From: Fodinicola acaciae
GTDB taxonomy: Bacteria; Actinomycetota; Actinomycetes; Mycobacteriales; HKI-0501
Direction: 5' to 3'
Assembly (NCBI RefSeq): GCF_010993745.1
Contig: NZ_WOTN01000002.1
Location: forward strand, 744,001 to 808,000
DNA length: 64,000 nucleotides
Shown: one piece after another, positions 29,894 through 57,926 of the stretch
Layout of the letters: each line of letters starts with the position of its first letter
How positions within the stretch are numbered: the stretch's first letter is position 1
The notes under the pieces: model-generated
The model's input: only the letters and a program-made list of their open reading frames with translations
The model's database searches: none
What the model was told of the DNA's origin: nothing
Position numbers and translations under genes: made by a program

Positions 29894-31597
29894 TCAGGTG
29901 GCGATGATGGTGTCGGCGACCACAATGTCGAAGAGTGGTTGGTAGCGGCCGAAGTCGGCGTCCGGCGCCAGTGTGGCGAGCTGCCACGACTTGCCGTCCG
30001 AGGTCACCGCGCCGTAGAGCACGTTGTGCCGCTTGACGCCCTGGTCGAGCCAGGTGAACTCCCAGCGCGCACCGTTGTCCACCCCGGCGAAGCGCACCTT
30101 CTTGATGCTGACCAGCTGATAGCCGGACAGGTGGGAGCTGCTGCCGGTGTCGGCGCGCGCGTCGCTGCCGGCCTGGAACTCGTCGACCGCCGAGCCGCGT
30201 GCCTGGCCTGGCTGGGAGAACTGGACGCGGATCTTCTTGCTGTCCGGCTGGTCCGGCGGACCGTACGCGAACAGCTTCGGGTCGGTCGGTTTGCTGACCC
30301 AGCCGACCGGGACGGCGACCTTGAAGCCTCTGATGTCCTCCACCGTGACGGTCGCCGGTGGCGTACTGCTGGCGCTGCTGGTCGGGGTCTTCGGTGACGG
30401 AGTGCCGGTTGGGCCGGTGGAGCCGTGGCTGAGCGTCCAGACGACGGCCGTGCCTGCTCCGGCGGCTACGACGAGCGCCAGGACGATGACGACTATCGCG
30501 ATCGGCCGGCGGCGTTTGGTCGGTCTCGGCGGCGGTGGTGGTGGCGCTGGCCGGACCGGTGGCGGCGGTGTGGCCGGTCGGCCGTACAAGGTGCCGGATC
30601 GCGGTGGCGTCGAGACCGTGGCGCGGCCGATCGGTGGGCTCATCGGCAGGACCTGCGTCTGGTGCACCTGCACGGTCGACGCTTCCGGTCCGGCCGGCGG
30701 TGGCGGCACCGGGATCGGGTCGGCCGGCGCCGGTGCGGTCGGCATGCTGGTCGCCGGCAGGGGTGCCGCGCCTTCGGCTGCCTGCTTGAGGGCTTTGAGC
30801 GCCGCGTCGGCGTCGAGGCGGCGGGTCTGGTCCTTGTCCAGGAGGCCGGCGAGCAGGGGTTGGAGGGGGCCGGCGAGGCGGAAGGGGTCCGGCGGCTCGT
30901 TGAGGATCGCGGCGAGCGTGGGCAGCGGGCCTTCGCGGTCGAACGGAGGCCGGCCTTCGACGGCCTGGTAGAGCGTGGCGCCGAGCGAGAACAGGTCGCT
31001 CGGCGGTCCGATGGTCTCTCCGCGTACGCGCTCCGGTGCGATGAACGGCGGTGAGCCGATCATCAGCCCGGTCGCGGTCAGCGAGGTCTTGTCCAGCTCG
31101 AAGGCGATACCGAAGTCGGTGAGGCTGACCGCTCCGTCGGCGCCGACGATGACGTTGGCCGGCTTGACGTCGCGGTGCAGCACGCCGGCCTTGTGCGCGG
31201 CGGTGAGCGCGCCGAGCAGCGCGATGCCGATCTCGGCCACCTGCGGCGCCGGCAGTGGACCGCCGTCCATCACCAGGTCGTCGAGGCTCCTGCCGTTGAT
31301 CAGCTCCATGACGATCCAGGGGCTGTCGTCGACGGTGAGTACGTCGTACACGCTGACGATCGCCGGATGCCGCAGCCGCGCGCCGAGCCGGGCCTCCTTG
31401 AGCAGCCGGTCGGACATCTCCCTGCGTACCTCGGCCGCCATCGACGCCGGCAGCAGCAGCTCCTTGAGCGCCACCTCCCGATCCAGGATCCGGTCGCGCG
31501 CTCGCCACACCCGACCCATGCCGCCCTGACCGATCGCCGACACCACGGTGTAGCGATCAGCAATCACCCGGCTCTCGCCGGCCGGCGCCCCGACCAC
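29894..31597 (-). CDS. membrane Ser/Thr protein kinase, first of a pair
   Basis: The 567-aa protein starts at GTG 31597. The kinase domain (about 14-270) has GQGGMG (23-28), Lys45 in VALKE, HRDVKPAN with Asp143, DFG at 161-163 and an APERV segment. A Pro-rich juxtamembrane part (PPPPRPTKRRRP) precedes a single transmembrane helix (IAIVVIVLALVVAAGAGTAV). The extracellular part (about 400-567) ends in a beta-rich sensor with VAVPVGWVSKPTDP and ARWEFTWLDQG. There are no PASTA repeats. The kinase at 32.9-34.8 kb has the same overall plan and a similar extracellular domain. Confidence 0.93.
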   Translation of the reverse strand: MVGAPAGESRVIADRYTVVSAIGQGGMGRVWRARDRILDREVALKELLLPASMAAEVRREMSDRLLKEARLGARLRHPAIVSVYDVLTVDDSPWIVMELINGRSLDDLVMDGGPLPAPQVAEIGIALLGALTAAHKAGVLHRDVKPANVIVGADGAVSLTDFGIAFELDKTSLTATGLMIGSPPFIAPERVRGETIGPPSDLFSLGATLYQAVEGRPPFDREGPLPTLAAILNEPPDPFRLAGPLQPLLAGLLDKDQTRRLDADAALKALKQAAEGAAPLPATSMPTAPAPADPIPVPPPPAGPEASTVQVHQTQVLPMSPPIGRATVSTPPRSGTLYGRPATPPPPVRPAPPPPPPRPTKRRRPIAIVVIVLALVVAAGAGTAVVWTLSHGSTGPTGTPSPKTPTSSASSTPPATVTVEDIRGFKVAVPVGWVSKPTDPKLFAYGPPDQPDSKKIRVQFSQPGQARGSAVDEFQAGSDARADTGSSSHLSGYQLVSIKKVRFAGVDNGARWEFTWLDQGVKRHNVLYGAVTSDGKSWQLATLAPDADFGRYQPLFDIVVADTIIAT

Positions 31598-31680
31598 CCC
31601 GCCAGGTTAGGGCCCGACGCCACCACCCGTGAATCATCCAGCAGTCCACCACCCCACCCTTGCCCCAAAAGGCAACCGCC

Positions 31681-32076
31681 GACTACCCGCTACAGCGCGA
31701 AACTGTCGTACCCCCCTGCCAAATTTGGCCCCCACCCAGATCGGGTGGGGGGTGGGTTCGCGTGGAAACTTACCTAAGTTCGAAATTTGATCTTGAAACG
31801 TGCGTTGAGCGCTAAATGCCCTATTTGCGCAAATGTCAGATGCACGCAAGGCCCCCTTGCGTGCATCCAGCGCACGCATGGAGGCCATGCGTGCATGGCG
31901 CCATGTGTCAGGAGTGACTTCTGTGATCACAGTGGCCATTGAGTCACATGAGGCTAGCGACCAAGATCAACTTCTATGTATGTGAGTTTCCAACGCGAAC
32001 CCACCCCCCGCCCGATCTGGGTGGGGGCCCAGATTGGCAGGGGGGTACGACAGTTTCTCGCCGTAGCGGGTAAGTC
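31681..32076. repeat. 396-bp nested inverted-repeat element downstream of punA
   Basis: The outer arms, 31681-31772 and 31982-32076, are inverted copies about 90 bp long with roughly nine of ten positions matching. Inside lie two perfect hairpins: 31839-31851 with 31855-31867 (13 bp), and 31872-31881 with 31885-31894 (10 bp). The right arm ends in the punA stop codon; the left ends 84 bp before the kinase start. It contains no gene. Its outer arms share GCGAAACTGTCG with the arms at 45448-45561, and its inner part matches 39521-39557. It may be a miniature mobile repeat, a structured RNA or a terminator. Confidence 0.75.
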
Positions 32077-32872
32077 AGAGTTTGGCGACGATGGCGGCCA
32101 GGACGTCGCCCAGGGAGGTGGCGGCGGCTTTGCCGGCGGCGAGGACTTCCTCGTGGTTGGGGGGTTGGTCGCTCAGGCCGGCGGCGACGTTGGTGACCAT
32201 CGACAGGCCGAGTACGTGCAGGCCGGCCGCGCGCGCGGCGATGGCTTCCAGGGCGGTCGACATGCCGACCAGGTCGGCGCCCACGGTGGCGAGCATGCGG
32301 ATCTCGGCGGGCGTCTCGAAGTGCGGACCCGGCAGCGCGGCATAGACGCCCTCGACCAGGCTCGGGTCGATCTCTCGCGCCAGCGACCGCAGCCGTGGCG
32401 AGTACGCGTCGACCAGGTCGACGAAGTTGGCGCCGACCAGCGGCGAGCGTGCGGTCAGGTTGAGATGGTCGCTGATGAGGACGGGCTGGCCGACGTGGTA
32501 GCCGCGGTTGATGCCGCCGGCCGCGTTGGTCAGCAGGATCGTGTGACAGCCGGCCGCCGCCGCGGTGCGTACGCCGTGCACGACCGGCTCGACGCCGAGG
32601 CCCTCGTAGAGATGCGTACGACCGAGGAACACCAGCACGCGCTTGTCCGCCACCGTCACCGAGCGGATCTTGCCGACGTGGCCGAGCGCGGTCGGCGGCG
32701 CGAAGCCCGGCAGGTCGGTCAGCGGCACCTCTGCCTCGGCGGAGCCGATCCGGTCGGCGGCCGGAGCCCAGCCGGAGCCGAGTACGACGGCCACGTCGTG
32801 CCGGTCGGCACCGGTGGCGCGTACGAGTGCGGCGGCGCTGTCCGCCGCGAGCTGCGTGGGATTGGTGGTCAC
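32075..32872 (-). CDS. punA: purine-nucleoside phosphorylase
   Basis: The 265-aa protein starts at GTG 32872 ([16 protein letters not shown]). It has [16 protein letters not shown] for phosphate binding, [20 protein letters not shown], the active-site [20 protein letters not shown], and [13 protein letters not shown]. It cleaves purine nucleosides with phosphate to give ribose 1-phosphate. The frame extends upstream without a conserved start, so the GTG at 32872 was chosen. It sits between two kinase genes on the same strand, 23 bp after the upstream kinase stop. The large nested repeat lies directly downstream, overlapping the stop. Confidence 0.93.
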
Positions 32873-32884
32873 GGACGCCGAGGC

Positions 32885-32901
32885 TATAACAGACCCTAGG
32901 A
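32885..32901. repeat. IS-like end motif at the kinase stop codon
   Basis: On the minus strand the kinase stop reads CCTAGGGTCTGTTATAG. The first 12 bases match the motif at 50985-51002, and TAG is again the stop codon. The match ends after GTCTGTT. No inner transposon sequence is present. Confidence 0.4.
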
Positions 32902-38274: not shown

Positions 38275-39504
38275 GTGACGACAACGCAGTCCGCCGGAAA
38301 TAGCCGGTTGGTTTCGACAATGGCGTCGGATCAGGAGTTGCGTACGCAGCTGGACCGGTGGCTGGTCAGCCACGGTGCCGAGCTGGTGGCGCTGCGGCGG
38401 GACCTGCACGCGCATCCGGAGCTGTCCAAGCACGAGCTGCGCACCACCGCGACGGTCGCCGGCCTGCTGGAGGCGGCCGGCCTCAAGCCGCGGCTGCTGC
38501 CGACCGGCAACGGCATCATCTGCGACATCGCTGGCGATCCGGCCGGCCCGATGGTGGCGCTGCGCGCCGACATGGACGCGTTGCCCATTCCCGACGCCAA
38601 AGACGTGCCGTACAAGTCCACTGTGGACGGTGTGTGCCACGCGTGCGGCCACGATGTGCACACCAGCGTGGTGGTCGGCGCCGGCCTGGCGCTGGCCGAG
38701 CGTGGCGGACTGCCCGGCACCGTGCGCCTGGTGTTCCAGCCGGCCGAGGAGGTCTTCGACGGCGGCGCGCCGGAGATGATCGACGCCGGCGCGCTGGACG
38801 GCGTCTCGCGGATCTTCGCGGTGCACTGCGACCCGCGGATCGCCGCCGGCGAGGTCGGCGTACGGGTCGGTCCGCTGACCGCGTCGGCCGACTCGATCCG
38901 GGTCTCGCTGGCCGGTCCCGGCGGCCACACCGCCCGGCCGTATCTGACCGCCGACGTGGTCGAGGCGATCGGCCGGGTGATCACCGAGGTGCCGGCGCTG
39001 CTGGCACGCCGGACGGACCCGCGCTCCGGCGTGTCGCTGGTCTTCGGCGCCGTACACGCCGGCCAGGCCGCCAACACCATCCCGCAGGCCGCGTACGCGC
39101 TGGGGACGGTGCGGATCCTCGACCGCGAGGCGTGGGCCGGCGCTCCGGCGCTGATCAGCCAGCTGGTGCACGAGGTCGTGGCGCCCACGCGCGCCACCGC
39201 GGAGATCACGTACACGCGCGGCGTGCCGCCGGTCGTGAACGAGCCCGGCGCCACCGGCGTGCTGGCGGAGGCGGCTCGCGCCGGGCTCGGCGCCGACGCC
39301 GTGGTCGGCACGCCGCAGAGCATGGGTGGCGAGGACTTCTCCTGGTATCTGGAGCACGTCCCTGGCGCGATGGCCCGGCTCGGCGTCGGCCGTCCCGGCG
39401 AGCAGCTCGACCTGCACCAGGGGACGTTCGACGTGGACGAGCGCGCGATCGCGACGGGCGTACGGCTGCTGGCGCACACCGCCGTCGCCGCCCTGCGTAC
39501 GTAA
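38275..39504 (+). CDS. M20-family metallopeptidase / amidohydrolase
   Basis: The 409-aa protein has RRDLHAHPELSKHELRTTAT, the metal-site region CHACGHDVHTSVVVGAGLAL, FQPAEEVFDGGAPEMIDAGA and MGGEDFSWYLEHVPGAMARL. This is the M20D/HipO-like aminoacylase or amidohydrolase group, which hydrolyses N-acyl amino acids or similar amides with two metal ions. The start is GTG 38275 (TTTQSAGNSRLVST) or ATG 38320 (MASDQELRTQLDRWL); AAGGGACG upstream favours the first. A 21-bp perfect hairpin follows 4 bp after the stop. Confidence 0.9.
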   Translation: MTTTQSAGNSRLVSTMASDQELRTQLDRWLVSHGAELVALRRDLHAHPELSKHELRTTATVAGLLEAAGLKPRLLPTGNGIICDIAGDPAGPMVALRADMDALPIPDAKDVPYKSTVDGVCHACGHDVHTSVVVGAGLALAERGGLPGTVRLVFQPAEEVFDGGAPEMIDAGALDGVSRIFAVHCDPRIAAGEVGVRVGPLTASADSIRVSLAGPGGHTARPYLTADVVEAIGRVITEVPALLARRTDPRSGVSLVFGAVHAGQAANTIPQAAYALGTVRILDREAWAGAPALISQLVHEVVAPTRATAEITYTRGVPPVVNEPGATGVLAEAARAGLGADAVVGTPQSMGGEDFSWYLEHVPGAMARLGVGRPGEQLDLHQGTFDVDERAIATGVRLLAHTAVAALRT

Positions 39505-39507
39505 GTT

Positions 39508-39554
39508 CGCATGGCCACCATGCGTGCGCCCAACGCACGCATGGTGGCCATGCG
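39508..39554. terminator. 21-bp perfect palindrome downstream of the M20 gene
   Basis: Arms 39508-39528 and 39534-39554 pair perfectly with a 5-nt loop. The inner part, 39521-39557, matches 31857-31893 at 32 of 37 positions, so both belong to one dispersed repeat family. There is no U-tract. It probably ends M20 transcripts or stabilises their 3' end. Confidence 0.75.
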
Positions 39555-39670
39555 AGCGGACCTCAAGTGGCCAACCCGATACGAGCCGTTCCTGATAACT
39601 CGACCGGTACATTCAGACATATGGGGCAAGGCCTTGATCGTCACGTTACGTAGTGTCTAGACTACTTAAC

Positions 39671-45447: not shown

Positions 45448-45561
45448 GCGCCGAAACTGTCGGTGCCTGCTGGAAGAATGAGATCAGGGGTGCTTCGTCC
45501 CCTTGGGGGAAAATGGCCCCCCGACATCAAGTCTTCCGGCAGGCACCGACAGTTTCGCGCC
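45448..45561. terminator. nested inverted repeat between convergent genes
   Basis: Outer arms 45448-45477 and 45532-45561 match at all but two or three of 29 positions. The interior holds GGGG..CCCC pairings (45488-45502) and GGGGG..CCCCCC pairings (45505-45523). The outer arms contain GCCGAAACTGTCGGTGCC, sharing CGAAACTGTCG with the arms of the 31.7-32.1 kb element. It fills nearly the entire gap between convergent genes and could terminate both. Confidence 0.75.
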
Positions 45562-45569
45562 GTACGCGG

Positions 45570-46040
45570 TCACCAGCCGTGGCGGCGGGCCCGGCGTCGT
45601 TGGCGGCGGTCGCGGTCATCGCGGTCGTCGTCGTCCGGATACCAGATCTTGCCGGCGAAGGCCGACAGTCCGATCGGGATGAACATCAGCCACCACAGCG
45701 ACCAGTGCGACACGACCGCGAGCGGGATCCACAGCATCCAACTGGCCGCCGAGATGCCGGTCACGATGCGTTTGGCCAGCTCGCCGCGCTCGACGCGAGC
45801 CACTGGCCGCTCCGGTCGCTTCGCCAGGTCGACGGCCGGCGCCGGCGTCTCGAGCGTCGGATGGGGTGCCGGCAGGTCCTTGAACAGCGCCAGCAGGTCG
45901 CCGCGGGTCGTCGCGCTGGTCGCCTCGGCGCTGCGCGTGCCGTACTCGTCCAGCGTGAGCCGTCCCGCGGACAGGTGCTCACCCAGCGCGGCGATGGCGG
46001 CCTCGCGTTCGGCGTCGCCGATCCGCAGCTCGTCAGTCAT
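45570..46040 (-). CDS. DUF1707 membrane protein
   Basis: The 156-aa protein begins MTDELRIGDAEREAAIAALG, with EHLSAGRLTLDEYGTRSAEA, the DUF1707 SHOCT-like N-terminal domain common in actinobacteria, then two hydrophobic helices (ISAASWMLWIPLAVVSHW, LWWLMFIPIGLSAFAG) and a charged tail of Asp/Arg repeats. Function is unknown; DUF1707 proteins are thought to be membrane-associated regulators. A paralogue is 50 bp upstream on the same strand. Confidence 0.9.
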   Translation of the reverse strand: MTDELRIGDAEREAAIAALGEHLSAGRLTLDEYGTRSAEATSATTRGDLLALFKDLPAPHPTLETPAPAVDLAKRPERPVARVERGELAKRIVTGISAASWMLWIPLAVVSHWSLWWLMFIPIGLSAFAGKIWYPDDDDRDDRDRRQRRRARRHGW

Positions 46041-46090
46041 GAAACCGATGGTACGCAGCCGACCGGCCGGCATCCGGTACGAATGTCACG

Positions 46091-55128: not shown

Positions 55129-56499
55129 TCAAACGATCGTGGTGAAATTGTTCCAACCGTGACCGATTTCGCTGTGTGCGCTGTAGGGCACGGCGTGGTT
55201 TGCCTTGTAGTTTCCGGGATATAGCTCCATCTCGCCGGTCGACCTGATGCCGAGCAGATCGGTGTAGCCGTCGCCGTTGGCGTCGGCGGCGACAATCCGG
55301 CTGTAGGCATTCCAGCCGTGGCCGATCTCGATGTGCGCGCTGTATGGCACGGCGCTGTTGCCGCGGAAGTTGTTGGCGTACAACGACATGTCGCCTGTGC
55401 TGGTGACGCCGAGCAGGTCGGTGTAGCCGTCGCCGGTCACGTCCGCGGCGATGATCCGGCTGTAGGAATTCCAGCCGTGACCGATCTCCAGATGTGAGCT
55501 GTACGGCGCGGCGTGGTTGGCCTTGTAGTTGTTGACGTACATCGTCATGACGCCGTCCGGCGTGAGTGCGAGTAGGTCGGTGTAGCCGTCGCCGTTGACA
55601 TCCGCGCCGAGGACCCGGTCGAAAGCGTTCCAGCCGTGGCCGATTTCGCTGTGTCCGCTGTAGGGAATGCCGTCGTTTGCCACGTAACTGTTGGCATACA
55701 ACAACATCGTGCCGTCGGTCTGGAAGGCGACCAGGTCGGTGTAGCCATCTCCGGTGACGTCGGCCGGCACCAGTCGTTTCATGTCCTGCCAGCCGTGGCC
55801 GATCTCCTTGACCACGCCGTACGGCACGTCGTTGATGAGGATGTTGTCGGGATACAGCAACATCGTGCCGTCGGACTTGACGCCGAGCAGGTCGGTGAAG
55901 TTGTCGCCGGTGACACTGTGACCGTCCGGCGAGCCGACGACGGCCCACACAGCGTTGGCGATCGCGATGCCGTCCGCCGTCGCGTCGTAATAGCGCTGCG
56001 GAAAGGCCGACCCCTGGACTTTCTGGCAGATCTCACCGATCGGCGCGGTCCGCCAGTCGCTGATCCGCAGCATGTGGTCGACGAACTGGTTGGTCGCGTA
56101 GATCGGATCCATGATCTGTTCCGGCGTACCCCAGCCGGCCGACGGCCGCTGCTGGAACAGGCCGAGGCTGTCCAGGTCGCCGTAGGTCAGATTCTGGATC
56201 AGCGACTCGACGATCACCGTGGTGATGGCGATGTGCGCCGCACGCACCGGCAGGCCGCGCTGGTGGATCCGGTTGGAGATGACTCGCGCGCACGACACGC
56301 GATAGGCGGTCATCACGCCCTTCATCGAACCGGTCAGGCTTTTGTTGAGAGAGCTGGCGATCGAGGCGTCCGAGGCGGTCGTGCCGGCCGGGTCGCACGG
56401 TCTGGTGCTGGCGGCCTGAGCCGGGGTGGCGCCGAGCGCCGCGGACGCCAGCACCACCGCGCTGGCCGCCACCGCCAGCCGGAAGAACAGTCTTTTCAT
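55129..56499 (-). CDS. secreted lysozyme-like domain protein with five FG-GAP-like repeats
   Basis: The 456-aa protein has a signal peptide (1-29). Residues about 30-190 form a lysozyme/transglycosylase-like domain (AITTVIVESLIQNLTYGDLD, with likely catalytic Glu98; LGLFQQRPSAGWGTPEQIMD). From about 197 it has five repeats of 52-53 residues, each starting (T/N)GDGYTDLL and ending EIGHGW, a beta-propeller-like FG-GAP/VCBS unit possibly binding Ca or ligand. The repeat part is nearly identical to that of the upstream gene, which has a different catalytic domain. The two genes are 20 bp apart and in one operon. Confidence 0.85.
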   Translation of the reverse strand: MKRLFFRLAVAASAVVLASAALGATPAQAASTRPCDPAGTTASDASIASSLNKSLTGSMKGVMTAYRVSCARVISNRIHQRGLPVRAAHIAITTVIVESLIQNLTYGDLDSLGLFQQRPSAGWGTPEQIMDPIYATNQFVDHMLRISDWRTAPIGEICQKVQGSAFPQRYYDATADGIAIANAVWAVVGSPDGHSVTGDNFTDLLGVKSDGTMLLYPDNILINDVPYGVVKEIGHGWQDMKRLVPADVTGDGYTDLVAFQTDGTMLLYANSYVANDGIPYSGHSEIGHGWNAFDRVLGADVNGDGYTDLLALTPDGVMTMYVNNYKANHAAPYSSHLEIGHGWNSYSRIIAADVTGDGYTDLLGVTSTGDMSLYANNFRGNSAVPYSAHIEIGHGWNAYSRIVAADANGDGYTDLLGIRSTGEMELYPGNYKANHAVPYSAHSEIGHGWNNFTTIV

Positions 56500-56519
56500 G
56501 TCGTCACGGTTCCGTTCGG

Positions 56520-57926
56520 CTAGACGATGGTGGCGAAGTTGTCCCAGCCATGGCCGATCTCGCCGTGTGCGCTGTAGGGCACCGCGGCGTTGGCCTTGTA
56601 GTTTCCGGGATAGAGCTCCATCTCGCCGGTCGGCCTGATGCCGAGCAGGTCGGTGTAGCCGTCGCCGTTGGCGTCGGCGGACAGGATCTGGCCGTAGGTG
56701 TTCCAGCCGTGGCCGATCTCGGCATGTGCGCTGTACGGCACGGCGCTGTTGGCCTTGAAGTTGTTGGCGTACAAGGACATGTCGCCTGTGCTGGTGACGC
56801 CGAGCAGGTCGGTGTAGCCGTCGCCGGTCACGTCCGCGGCGATGATCCGGCTGTAGGAATTCCAGCCGTGACCGATGTCGATATGCGAGCTGTACGGTGC
56901 CGCGTGGCTGGCCTTGTAGTTGTTGACGTACAACGTCATCACGCCGTCCGGCGTCAGCGCCAGCAGATCGGTGTAGCCGTCGCCGTTCACGTCGGCGCCG
57001 ATCACCCGGTCGAATGCGTTCCAGCCGTGGCCGATTTCGGTGTGTCCGCTGTAGGGAATGCCGTCGTTTGCCACGTAGCTGTTGGCGTACAACAACATCG
57101 TGCCGTCGGTCTGGAAGGCGACCAGGTCGGTGTAGCCATCTCCGGTGACGTCGGCCTGGACGAGTCGTTTCATGTCCTGCCAGCCGTGGCCGATCTCCTT
57201 GACCACACCGTACGGTATGCCGTCGTTGATCAGGATGTTGTTGGGATACAGCAACATCGTGCCGTCGGACTTGACGCCGAGCAGGTCGGTGAAGTTGTCG
57301 CCGGTGATGCTGTTGCCGTCGGCCGGACTGGTCGTTTCAAGGACGTTCTTGTAGCGCAGCGGCTTGTAGTCGCCGGTCGGATGGCCGGACAACGTGGCCT
57401 GGCTGAACGACGCGCCGGTCACCTTCCTCAGCGGCGTCGAGCCGAAGCTGTAATACCAGAAGGTCGTCTTCGCGCTGTTTTCCCAGCCGCCGAAGAGGAT
57501 CGCGTGATAGGGATAGCCGCTCTCGTGGTCGACCGTGTCGTCGAGCAGGTCGCCGGGCAGCAGTTGAGCGCGGGTGATCGACGTGGTGTACGTCGAGTCG
57601 TCGAGCCCGCCGGTGTTCGGGTCGGCGCCCAGGTGCCAGGACATGTCGACATATCCCGAGCAGTCGCGGCGATACTGGCGCGAATGCGTGCCGTCCCAGG
57701 TGTAGGCGCTCTGGTCGTAGGTCAGGTCGGAGTCGTTGCGGCGCAGATACCAGTTGGTCGCGCGCTGGATGATCTCGGTGCGAGTGATCTTGCCGCCGAT
57801 GGTCGAGGCGGCCTGAGCCGGTGCCGGCGCGACGGTGGCCACCAGCGCTGTGCTGGCCAGCAGTCCGGCGACGGCGAGCAGTCCGGTGACGGCGGACCGG
57901 CGCCGTCCTGAGCGAGTTCTCCGCAT
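56520..57926 (-). CDS. secreted NlpC/P60-like domain protein with five FG-GAP-like repeats
   Basis: The 468-aa protein starts at ATG 57926 (MRRTRSGRRRSAVTGLLAVA) with a signal peptide to about 39. Residues about 45-200 form a papain-like amidase domain: RRDCSGYVDMSWHLG with Cys89, and YPYHAILFGGW with His141. Such enzymes cut peptidoglycan peptides or lipoprotein-linked amides. From about 208 the same five FG-GAP-like repeats follow as in the next gene (SITGDNFTDLLGVKSDGTML). It leads the operon, preceded by 11-bp direct repeats and an AT-rich segment (58080-58170). Confidence 0.85.
   Translation of the reverse strand: MRRTRSGRRRSAVTGLLAVAGLLASTALVATVAPAPAQAASTIGGKITRTEIIQRATNWYLRRNDSDLTYDQSAYTWDGTHSRQYRRDCSGYVDMSWHLGADPNTGGLDDSTYTTSITRAQLLPGDLLDDTVDHESGYPYHAILFGGWENSAKTTFWYYSFGSTPLRKVTGASFSQATLSGHPTGDYKPLRYKNVLETTSPADGNSITGDNFTDLLGVKSDGTMLLYPNNILINDGIPYGVVKEIGHGWQDMKRLVQADVTGDGYTDLVAFQTDGTMLLYANSYVANDGIPYSGHTEIGHGWNAFDRVIGADVNGDGYTDLLALTPDGVMTLYVNNYKASHAAPYSSHIDIGHGWNSYSRIIAADVTGDGYTDLLGVTSTGDMSLYANNFKANSAVPYSAHAEIGHGWNTYGQILSADANGDGYTDLLGIRPTGEMELYPGNYKANAAVPYSAHGEIGHGWDNFATIV

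Follow-up and report, generated by a model that had tools for sequence, protein, structure and literature searches.

MITEs, exemplified by the Correia elements of Neisseria and RUP of pneumococcus, are small, geneless repeats with inverted ends and many dispersed intergenic copies; they stay under about 600 bp, and Correia elements carry TA at their ends. Repeats at gene 3' ends are also represented by ERIC (IRU), which we take to be unrelated to the repeat described here. BIME, REP, and REPIN sequences form mosaics of short palindromic modules downstream of genes, and the accessible parts of PMC3733652 divide REPs into two super-families, with a GTAG or a CGTC tag at the palindrome end, and report them mostly downstream of coding regions. 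The pneumococcal repeats SPRITE and BOX are likewise small and become inserted in each other, and the accessible parts of PMC10969869 describe SPRITE as terminator-like, report RNase III cutting of Correia elements, and record ERIC inserted at gene 3' ends in Yersinia enterocolitica, with transcript levels affected.

The repeat that we describe here, from Fodinicola acaciae GKU 173 (8.86 Mb in 4 contigs, N50 2.35 Mb, 68% GC), resembles each of these systems in part. Like MITEs, it has inverted ends, no coding capacity, short length, and presence or absence between relatives; like REPs, it contains short palindromes in inverted pairs (a 53-nt unit in 32 elements), and its core resembles REPIN. 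It departs from MITEs in its two joined arm types, nested twin palindrome, many single arms, and frequent start at a stop codon, a set of unlike and nested parts that is, to our knowledge, unusual among known families, and in lacking an autonomous partner transposase with the same ends among the Y1 and DDE_3 families searched. It differs from BIME, REP, and REPIN in its long conserved non-REP arms and in that no RAYT was found in either Fodinicola genome (that of F. feengrottensis being 74% complete). With SPRITE and BOX it shares a small size and the insertion of one repeat into another; it differs from them in having no T-tract terminator and in its host group. The literature search found no title on MITEs at stop codons in Actinobacteria, and the accessible part of the F. 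acaciae genome paper (PMC7232338) contains neither “repeat” nor “transpos.” We interpret the copy behind the gene punA as one member of a genus-restricted, non-autonomous, MITE/BIME-like mosaic mobile repeat, an arm of which may now serve as a transcript end, and we assign this reading a probability of about 0.6.

The element behind punA

The element occupies positions 31681..32076 of the window, the whole 64-kb stretch of DNA that was analysed, and lies between punA and a Ser/Thr protein kinase gene, both on the minus strand. The product of punA (32075..32899) was recognized as a purine-nucleoside phosphorylase by TIGR01698 (312.8 bits, cut-off 302.6) and PF01048 (154.3 bits); these coordinates delimit the stretch searched and do not fix the start codon. 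The kinase gene (29894..31597; PF00069, 149.9 bits) has its called start 83 nt past the left arm. A first-pass annotation, made from the letters alone, had described a nested inverted-repeat element directly 3' of punA, enclosing two smaller palindromes and no gene, and too large for an ordinary terminator. The analysis bears out this description. The inverted arms (31684-31768 and 31988-32072) are 85 nt each, 91% complementary, and spaced 219 nt apart; the punA stop TGA (32077-32075) overlaps the first columns of the right arm (distance -1); and the codon-model ORF caller kept no gene inside the element, which is crossed by ORFs (e.g., 31634-31939 on the minus and 31976-32899 on the plus strand), none of them convincing as a gene. 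The element folds to -273.4 kcal/mol (z -21.5) on one strand and to -270.0 kcal/mol (z -22.2) on the other, and none of 100 shuffles on either strand folded as low. No stem followed by a T-tract was detected within 31450-32250 (0 sites; shuffles, mean 0.5), nor did any Rfam model match at its gathering score in the 64-kb window.

Inverted repeats, folding of both strands, copies elsewhere, and arm typing together define the whole as an A+A two-arm copy. The family profile widens its arms, both of type A, to 31682..31796 on the plus strand (nhmmer, 115.9 bits) and 31957..32074 on the minus strand (108.1 bits). The outer end TACCCGCTAC lies at 31684-31693 in the left arm and at 32072-32063 in the right arm, which abuts the punA stop. 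Farther inward, the sequence of the left arm contains a GC stem, CCCCCACCC-AGATC-GGGTGGGGG (31729..31751), and the inverted-repeat search located a left inner repeat, AATTTGATCTTG (31784..31795, plus strand), which borders the core, and a right one, CAAGATCAACTT (31962..31973, minus strand), both also covered by the count of TTGATCTTGG-like motifs. Within the core lie a small palindrome, AGCGCTAAATGCCCTATTTGCGC (31808..31830), with the block AGCGCTAAA present in most of 23 aligned cores, and the two larger inner palindromes (31842-31864 and 31872-31894), which together form one 53-nt, REPIN-like twin unit (31842..31894) marked by paired changes.

Two further sites in the window share segments with the element, as had been noticed at first pass. 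A twin palindrome like that in the core (39508..39557) stands by itself and starts 3 bases past the TAA of an ORF at 38275-39504; its second half is matched by the family profile. A short arm-end fragment, GGCGCGAAACTGTCG (45547..45570, minus strand; 24 nt, 13.7 bits, E 0.0013), lies at the stop of a minus-strand ORF at 45570-46073. Three other genome sites (L202, L207, and L211) have GCGAAACTGTCG in common with this fragment, followed by a different, GGGG-rich sequence, and perhaps represent a second, related family. Elsewhere in the window, two blocks of repeats at 159-nt spacing (55133-57300) probably lie within repetitive coding sequence.

A family of modular copies

The repeat is dispersed over about a hundred places in the F. 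acaciae genome, often starting from the end of a gene's stop codon. The genome-wide search for the arms that the first-pass annotation had proposed, absence of any other copy counting against it, found GGGGTACGACAGTTTC, the motif of the arms, at 77+73 sites when as many as 2 mismatches were allowed, against 1+0 for the reversed control, and BLAST against the same genome produced at least 121 matches (40 of 283 candidates scored). Profile searching of 90 fetched regions recovered 139 arms, 5 of them weak (<30 bits), and 14 further sites of a shorter motif added another four arms (67.7-102.5 bits) along with four fragments that scored weakly; the regions were chosen from motif sites (100 of 150 listed) plus other searches, and all arm counts are lower bounds. 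Pairing of the 139 arms gave 46 elements with inverted ends, of which 12 are compact (192-260 bp) and 34 are long (325-663 bp), and left 49 arms single; these single arms fit poorly with a simple two-ended transposon. All paired elements but one (663 bp) measure 192-504 bp (45/46). An ordinary bidirectional terminator or a chance palindrome, for which the intergenic position could speak, is almost certainly wrong as an explanation of the punA element, being already refuted by the modular copies (the motif at 150 sites, its control at 1) and disfavored by the size and the missing T-tract.

The element regions are spread unevenly over the contigs (C1, 3; C2, 35; C3, 38; C4, 14; chi-square 51), and the largest contig, C1 (3.2 Mb), holds only 3 of the 90. 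A division into chromosome core and arms was rejected as the cause, the tRNA positions giving no clean split.

A full element comprises two inverted end modules (arms) of ~115 bp around a core of ~150 bp that carries the 53-nt twin palindrome. From the outside inward, an arm consists of the outer end TACCCGCTAC, the motif GAAACTGTCGTACC, a GC stem of the pattern CCCCCxCCC...GGGxGGGGG, a stretch that distinguishes type A (...TTCGCGTGG...) from type B (...GAGAGG...), and the inner repeat TTGATCTTGG. Long elements with both arms typed number 32, with 27 A+B, 5 A+A, and no B+B combinations, and 0 of 20,000 shuffles matched the 27 A+B, whereas 10 of the 12 compact elements are B+B. Within long elements, 33 of 39 A arms and 16 of 27 arms of type B carry the TTGATCTTGG-like motif (up to 2 mismatches), and none of the 24 arms of compact elements does. 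In the 90 regions plus the window, the end motif, with 1 mismatch allowed, stands beside an arm in 99 cases and elsewhere in 12. Alignment of 111 outer ends revealed a conserved TA (T 94%, A 96%) preceded by A-rich columns, with no target duplication beyond TA seen in these ends; the outer TA may just belong to the conserved end itself. The idea that elements insert into a TACCCGCTAC palindrome already in place was rejected, neither Fodinicola genome containing an exact uninterrupted one.

Mean pairwise identity reaches 0.86 among 26 A arms versus 0.58 among 23 cores. That A arms are kept while cores drift suggests that the arms matter, whether they help the element to move or act at gene ends. 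The twin palindrome itself is 53 nt long in all 32 long elements where it was found, and paired changes exceed slid controls whether it is folded as two hairpins or as one; columns 2-3 covary with columns 51-52, which is compatible with the one-hairpin, REPIN-like form only, and a few inherited subtypes could be the source of this joint change. The check for covariance suggested at first pass thus showed paired changes in this inner unit. Core-type palindromes occur at 315 genome sites, of which the 33 long elements can hold only about 66. This excess, the coordinated ends of the two inverted palindromes, the free copy at 39508-39557 starting 3 bases past a stop, and the position of REPs mainly downstream of coding regions (accessible parts of PMC3733652) would all suit a REP/BIME/REPIN population in which RAYT moves the palindromes and the arms are carried along. 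We nevertheless regard such a population as a highly improbable source of the element, and RAYT was rejected as the mover: no Y1 transposase (PF01797) was found in either Fodinicola genome (that of F. feengrottensis being 74% complete), whereas 5 of 14 genomes were positive in the control search, the long arms do not belong to the REPs, and F. feengrottensis has only 3 palindrome sites despite its many arms.

The first-pass annotation had further predicted that RNA transcribed with punA would form one very long hairpin. The punA copy does fold end to end on both strands, which accords with a Correia- or ERIC-like element that is co-transcribed with punA and acts through RNase III cutting or another effect on mRNA stability, and the accessible parts of PMC10969869 report both RNase III cutting (Correia) and effects at gene 3' ends (ERIC). 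Such a role is very unlikely; end-to-end pairing is not kept in the family. Across the 33 long elements, arms of the same element match at 0.71 on average versus 0.75 for arms of different elements, and 5000 of 5000 permutations were at least as high as the same-element mean, ruling out a conserved long hairpin; moreover, 27 of the 32 typed long elements combine two unlike arms. With a value of 0.85, the punA copy, one of the five A+A elements, exceeds the other 32 in self-complementarity, and it was because of this exceptional symmetry that the long hairpin drew notice.

For the arms, the covariance check turned out negative. Six pairs predicted by RNAalifold over 87 aligned arms (58 of 100 suitable F. 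acaciae arms plus 29 F. feengrottensis arms; alignment A1) showed no compensatory change. In the GC stem of the left arm, eight of nine pairs are kept in 81-87 of the 87 arms, and the ninth varies, mostly uncompensated; a covarying arm stem was accordingly rejected, G-C and C-G each occurring once among the 87 arms at the one variable pair of the nine-pair drawn stem. Single arms fold modestly better than shuffles (z -2.1 and -1.5).

Compact copies at unrelated sites are 94-99.5% identical over about 181-208 bp, and copies that are alike internally can differ in their outermost 15-20 bp. Two 504-bp nested elements at unrelated sites (2257-2760 in both L056 and L122) are 98.4% identical over 489 bp and diverge in the outermost left 15-17 bp; in each, a long A-type element without its own far arm is followed by a compact element. 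At L109 (about 2415-2620), three tandem repeats of ~67 bp each contain GAAACTGTCGTACC, the third copy being altered, but none of the other parts of an arm.

Stop codons and a possible role at transcript ends

Gene ends were taken from an ad hoc codon-model ORF caller rather than from annotation. By these calls, 138 arms have a gene on their outward side, 86 facing its stop and 52 its start. Among the stop-facing distances, a single value of 102 kb is artefactual, and 85 count. Thirty of the 86 stop-facing arms lie at distance -2 or -1, where the stop overlaps the first columns of the arm, leaving 1-2 bases between it and the conserved TA; the abutting stops are TGA in 17 of 17 cases at -1, and TAA (7), TGA (5), or TAG (1) at -2. 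No start-facing arm comes nearer than 22 nt, three negative values aside.

This abutment agrees with a reading that puts function first, in which a conserved 3'-end RNA or terminator was spread by selection and gene conversion, without transposition. The better conservation of A arms than of cores points the same way, as do a slightly better profile fit of stop-facing than of start-facing arms (compact elements excluded; Mann-Whitney p 0.009) and the ratio of stop- to start-facing arms, 46:19 for A versus 22:22 for B (Fisher p 0.043; arms within an element are not independent). A hairpin also takes the element's place in the sister species F. feengrottensis, where a perfect 12-bp hairpin, absent from F. 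acaciae, directly follows the punA stop (-25.4 kcal/mol, z -4.6). Spread by selection and gene conversion alone is nonetheless unlikely, even if it has more in its favor than the other alternatives: near-identical compact copies at unrelated sites require a copying step, the predicted arm stem shows no compensatory change, 52 of 138 arms point toward the start of a gene, the T-tract is missing, and A+B elements that have one stop side show A at the stop in 13 of 18 cases, which is not a significant excess (p 0.096). A terminator or other 3'-end role of the arms is plausible but unproven, given the missing T-tract, the weak folding of single arms, and the lack of covariation in their predicted stem.

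The sister species and the proposed spread of the repeat

The family also occurs in F. feengrottensis HKI 0501 (genome 74% complete). The arm pattern was present in 2 of 61 genomes, BLAST matched 3 of 150, the third over merely 25 bp, and an exact-pattern scan of one genome per species returned six F. feengrottensis loci and one match in Nitrospira. The latter, a single exact match in surroundings that resemble coding DNA (unannotated), was judged to be due to chance. No match was found in viral contigs (exact pattern) or in plasmids and phages (blastn). Judged from these searches, the family is restricted to the genus Fodinicola within the genomes covered.

In F. feengrottensis, punA has an unchanged stop but is not followed by the element. 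Orthologous spacers were compared at eight of nine sites (L071 left out). Four have no family member in F. feengrottensis (punA, C2:939358, L059, and L074), and the other four contain family members of different form in the two species, so that swapping of modules, or else hot spots, is also likely. The compact element at C2:939358 starts at the TA of the stop codon, which is TAG in F. feengrottensis and TAA in F. acaciae. The stop position is the same as in the ortholog at four touching sites (L064, L073, L075, and L077; distance -6 to 0, compared by eye, with L059 at distance -20 excluded from this reading), and these proteins were therefore not shortened by the element. The sample from F. 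feengrottensis comprised 40 stretches, each 20 kb long, and six 8-kb loci, with contigs mostly chosen for holding arms; in it, the closest stop-facing distances were 27 nt, 33-53 nt (42 and 53 nt among them), and more by rough gene calls; arms in this sample do not abut stops, and abutment is therefore a feature of F. acaciae.

Taken together, the near-identical compact copies and the sites without the element make copying by transposition most likely, and mobility is in this sense inferred from sequence. In the mosaic mobile repeat that we favor, an enzyme acting in trans would spread the copies into TA-containing, AT-rich sites, as the outer TA and the A-rich flank suggest; in a genome with 68% GC, such targets would often be stop codons. 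Once inserted, an arm would become the 3' end of the upstream transcript in place of the original terminator, and at the gene end it would perhaps limit decay or read-through into the next gene, which at punA is the kinase gene. Among the Y1 and DDE_3 families searched, no candidate for this enzyme emerged: neither Fodinicola genome yielded a Y1 transposase, and no transposon sharing the ends of the element was found. The TA at the arm ends invites comparison with MITEs derived from IS630/Tc1-mariner; the three DDE_3 matches in F. acaciae all lie far from the listed arms. Widely opposed single arms were also considered as the ends of an autonomous element and rejected: two pairs were inspected in the sequence, and the genes between them look ordinary, with no recognisable transposase.

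A bolder version would make the modules mobile, interchangeable 3'-end cassettes that insert exactly at stops and replace native terminators, two kinds of arm being joined around a core that flips between the inner repeats. The flip is suggested by the conserved inner inverted repeat bordering the core and by the occurrence of both core orientations relative to A->B (14:10). We consider this version quite unlikely; if true, it would mean that a selfish repeat remodels transcript ends genome-wide. A tie between core orientation and transcription was rejected, the orientation being random relative to the gene (10:11). Copies of the repeat that start at stop codons provide dozens of natural replicates in which a transcript end would have been swapped; the F. 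feengrottensis sites without the element offer controls, a hairpin standing in its place at one compared site.

Arms of F. feengrottensis at L169, L177, L178, and L179 often carry another end, GGGTGCGGCGC..., and several of them have a common flank similar to TCCGATTGTGCAGCTCTACATA, as if set in a second repeat.
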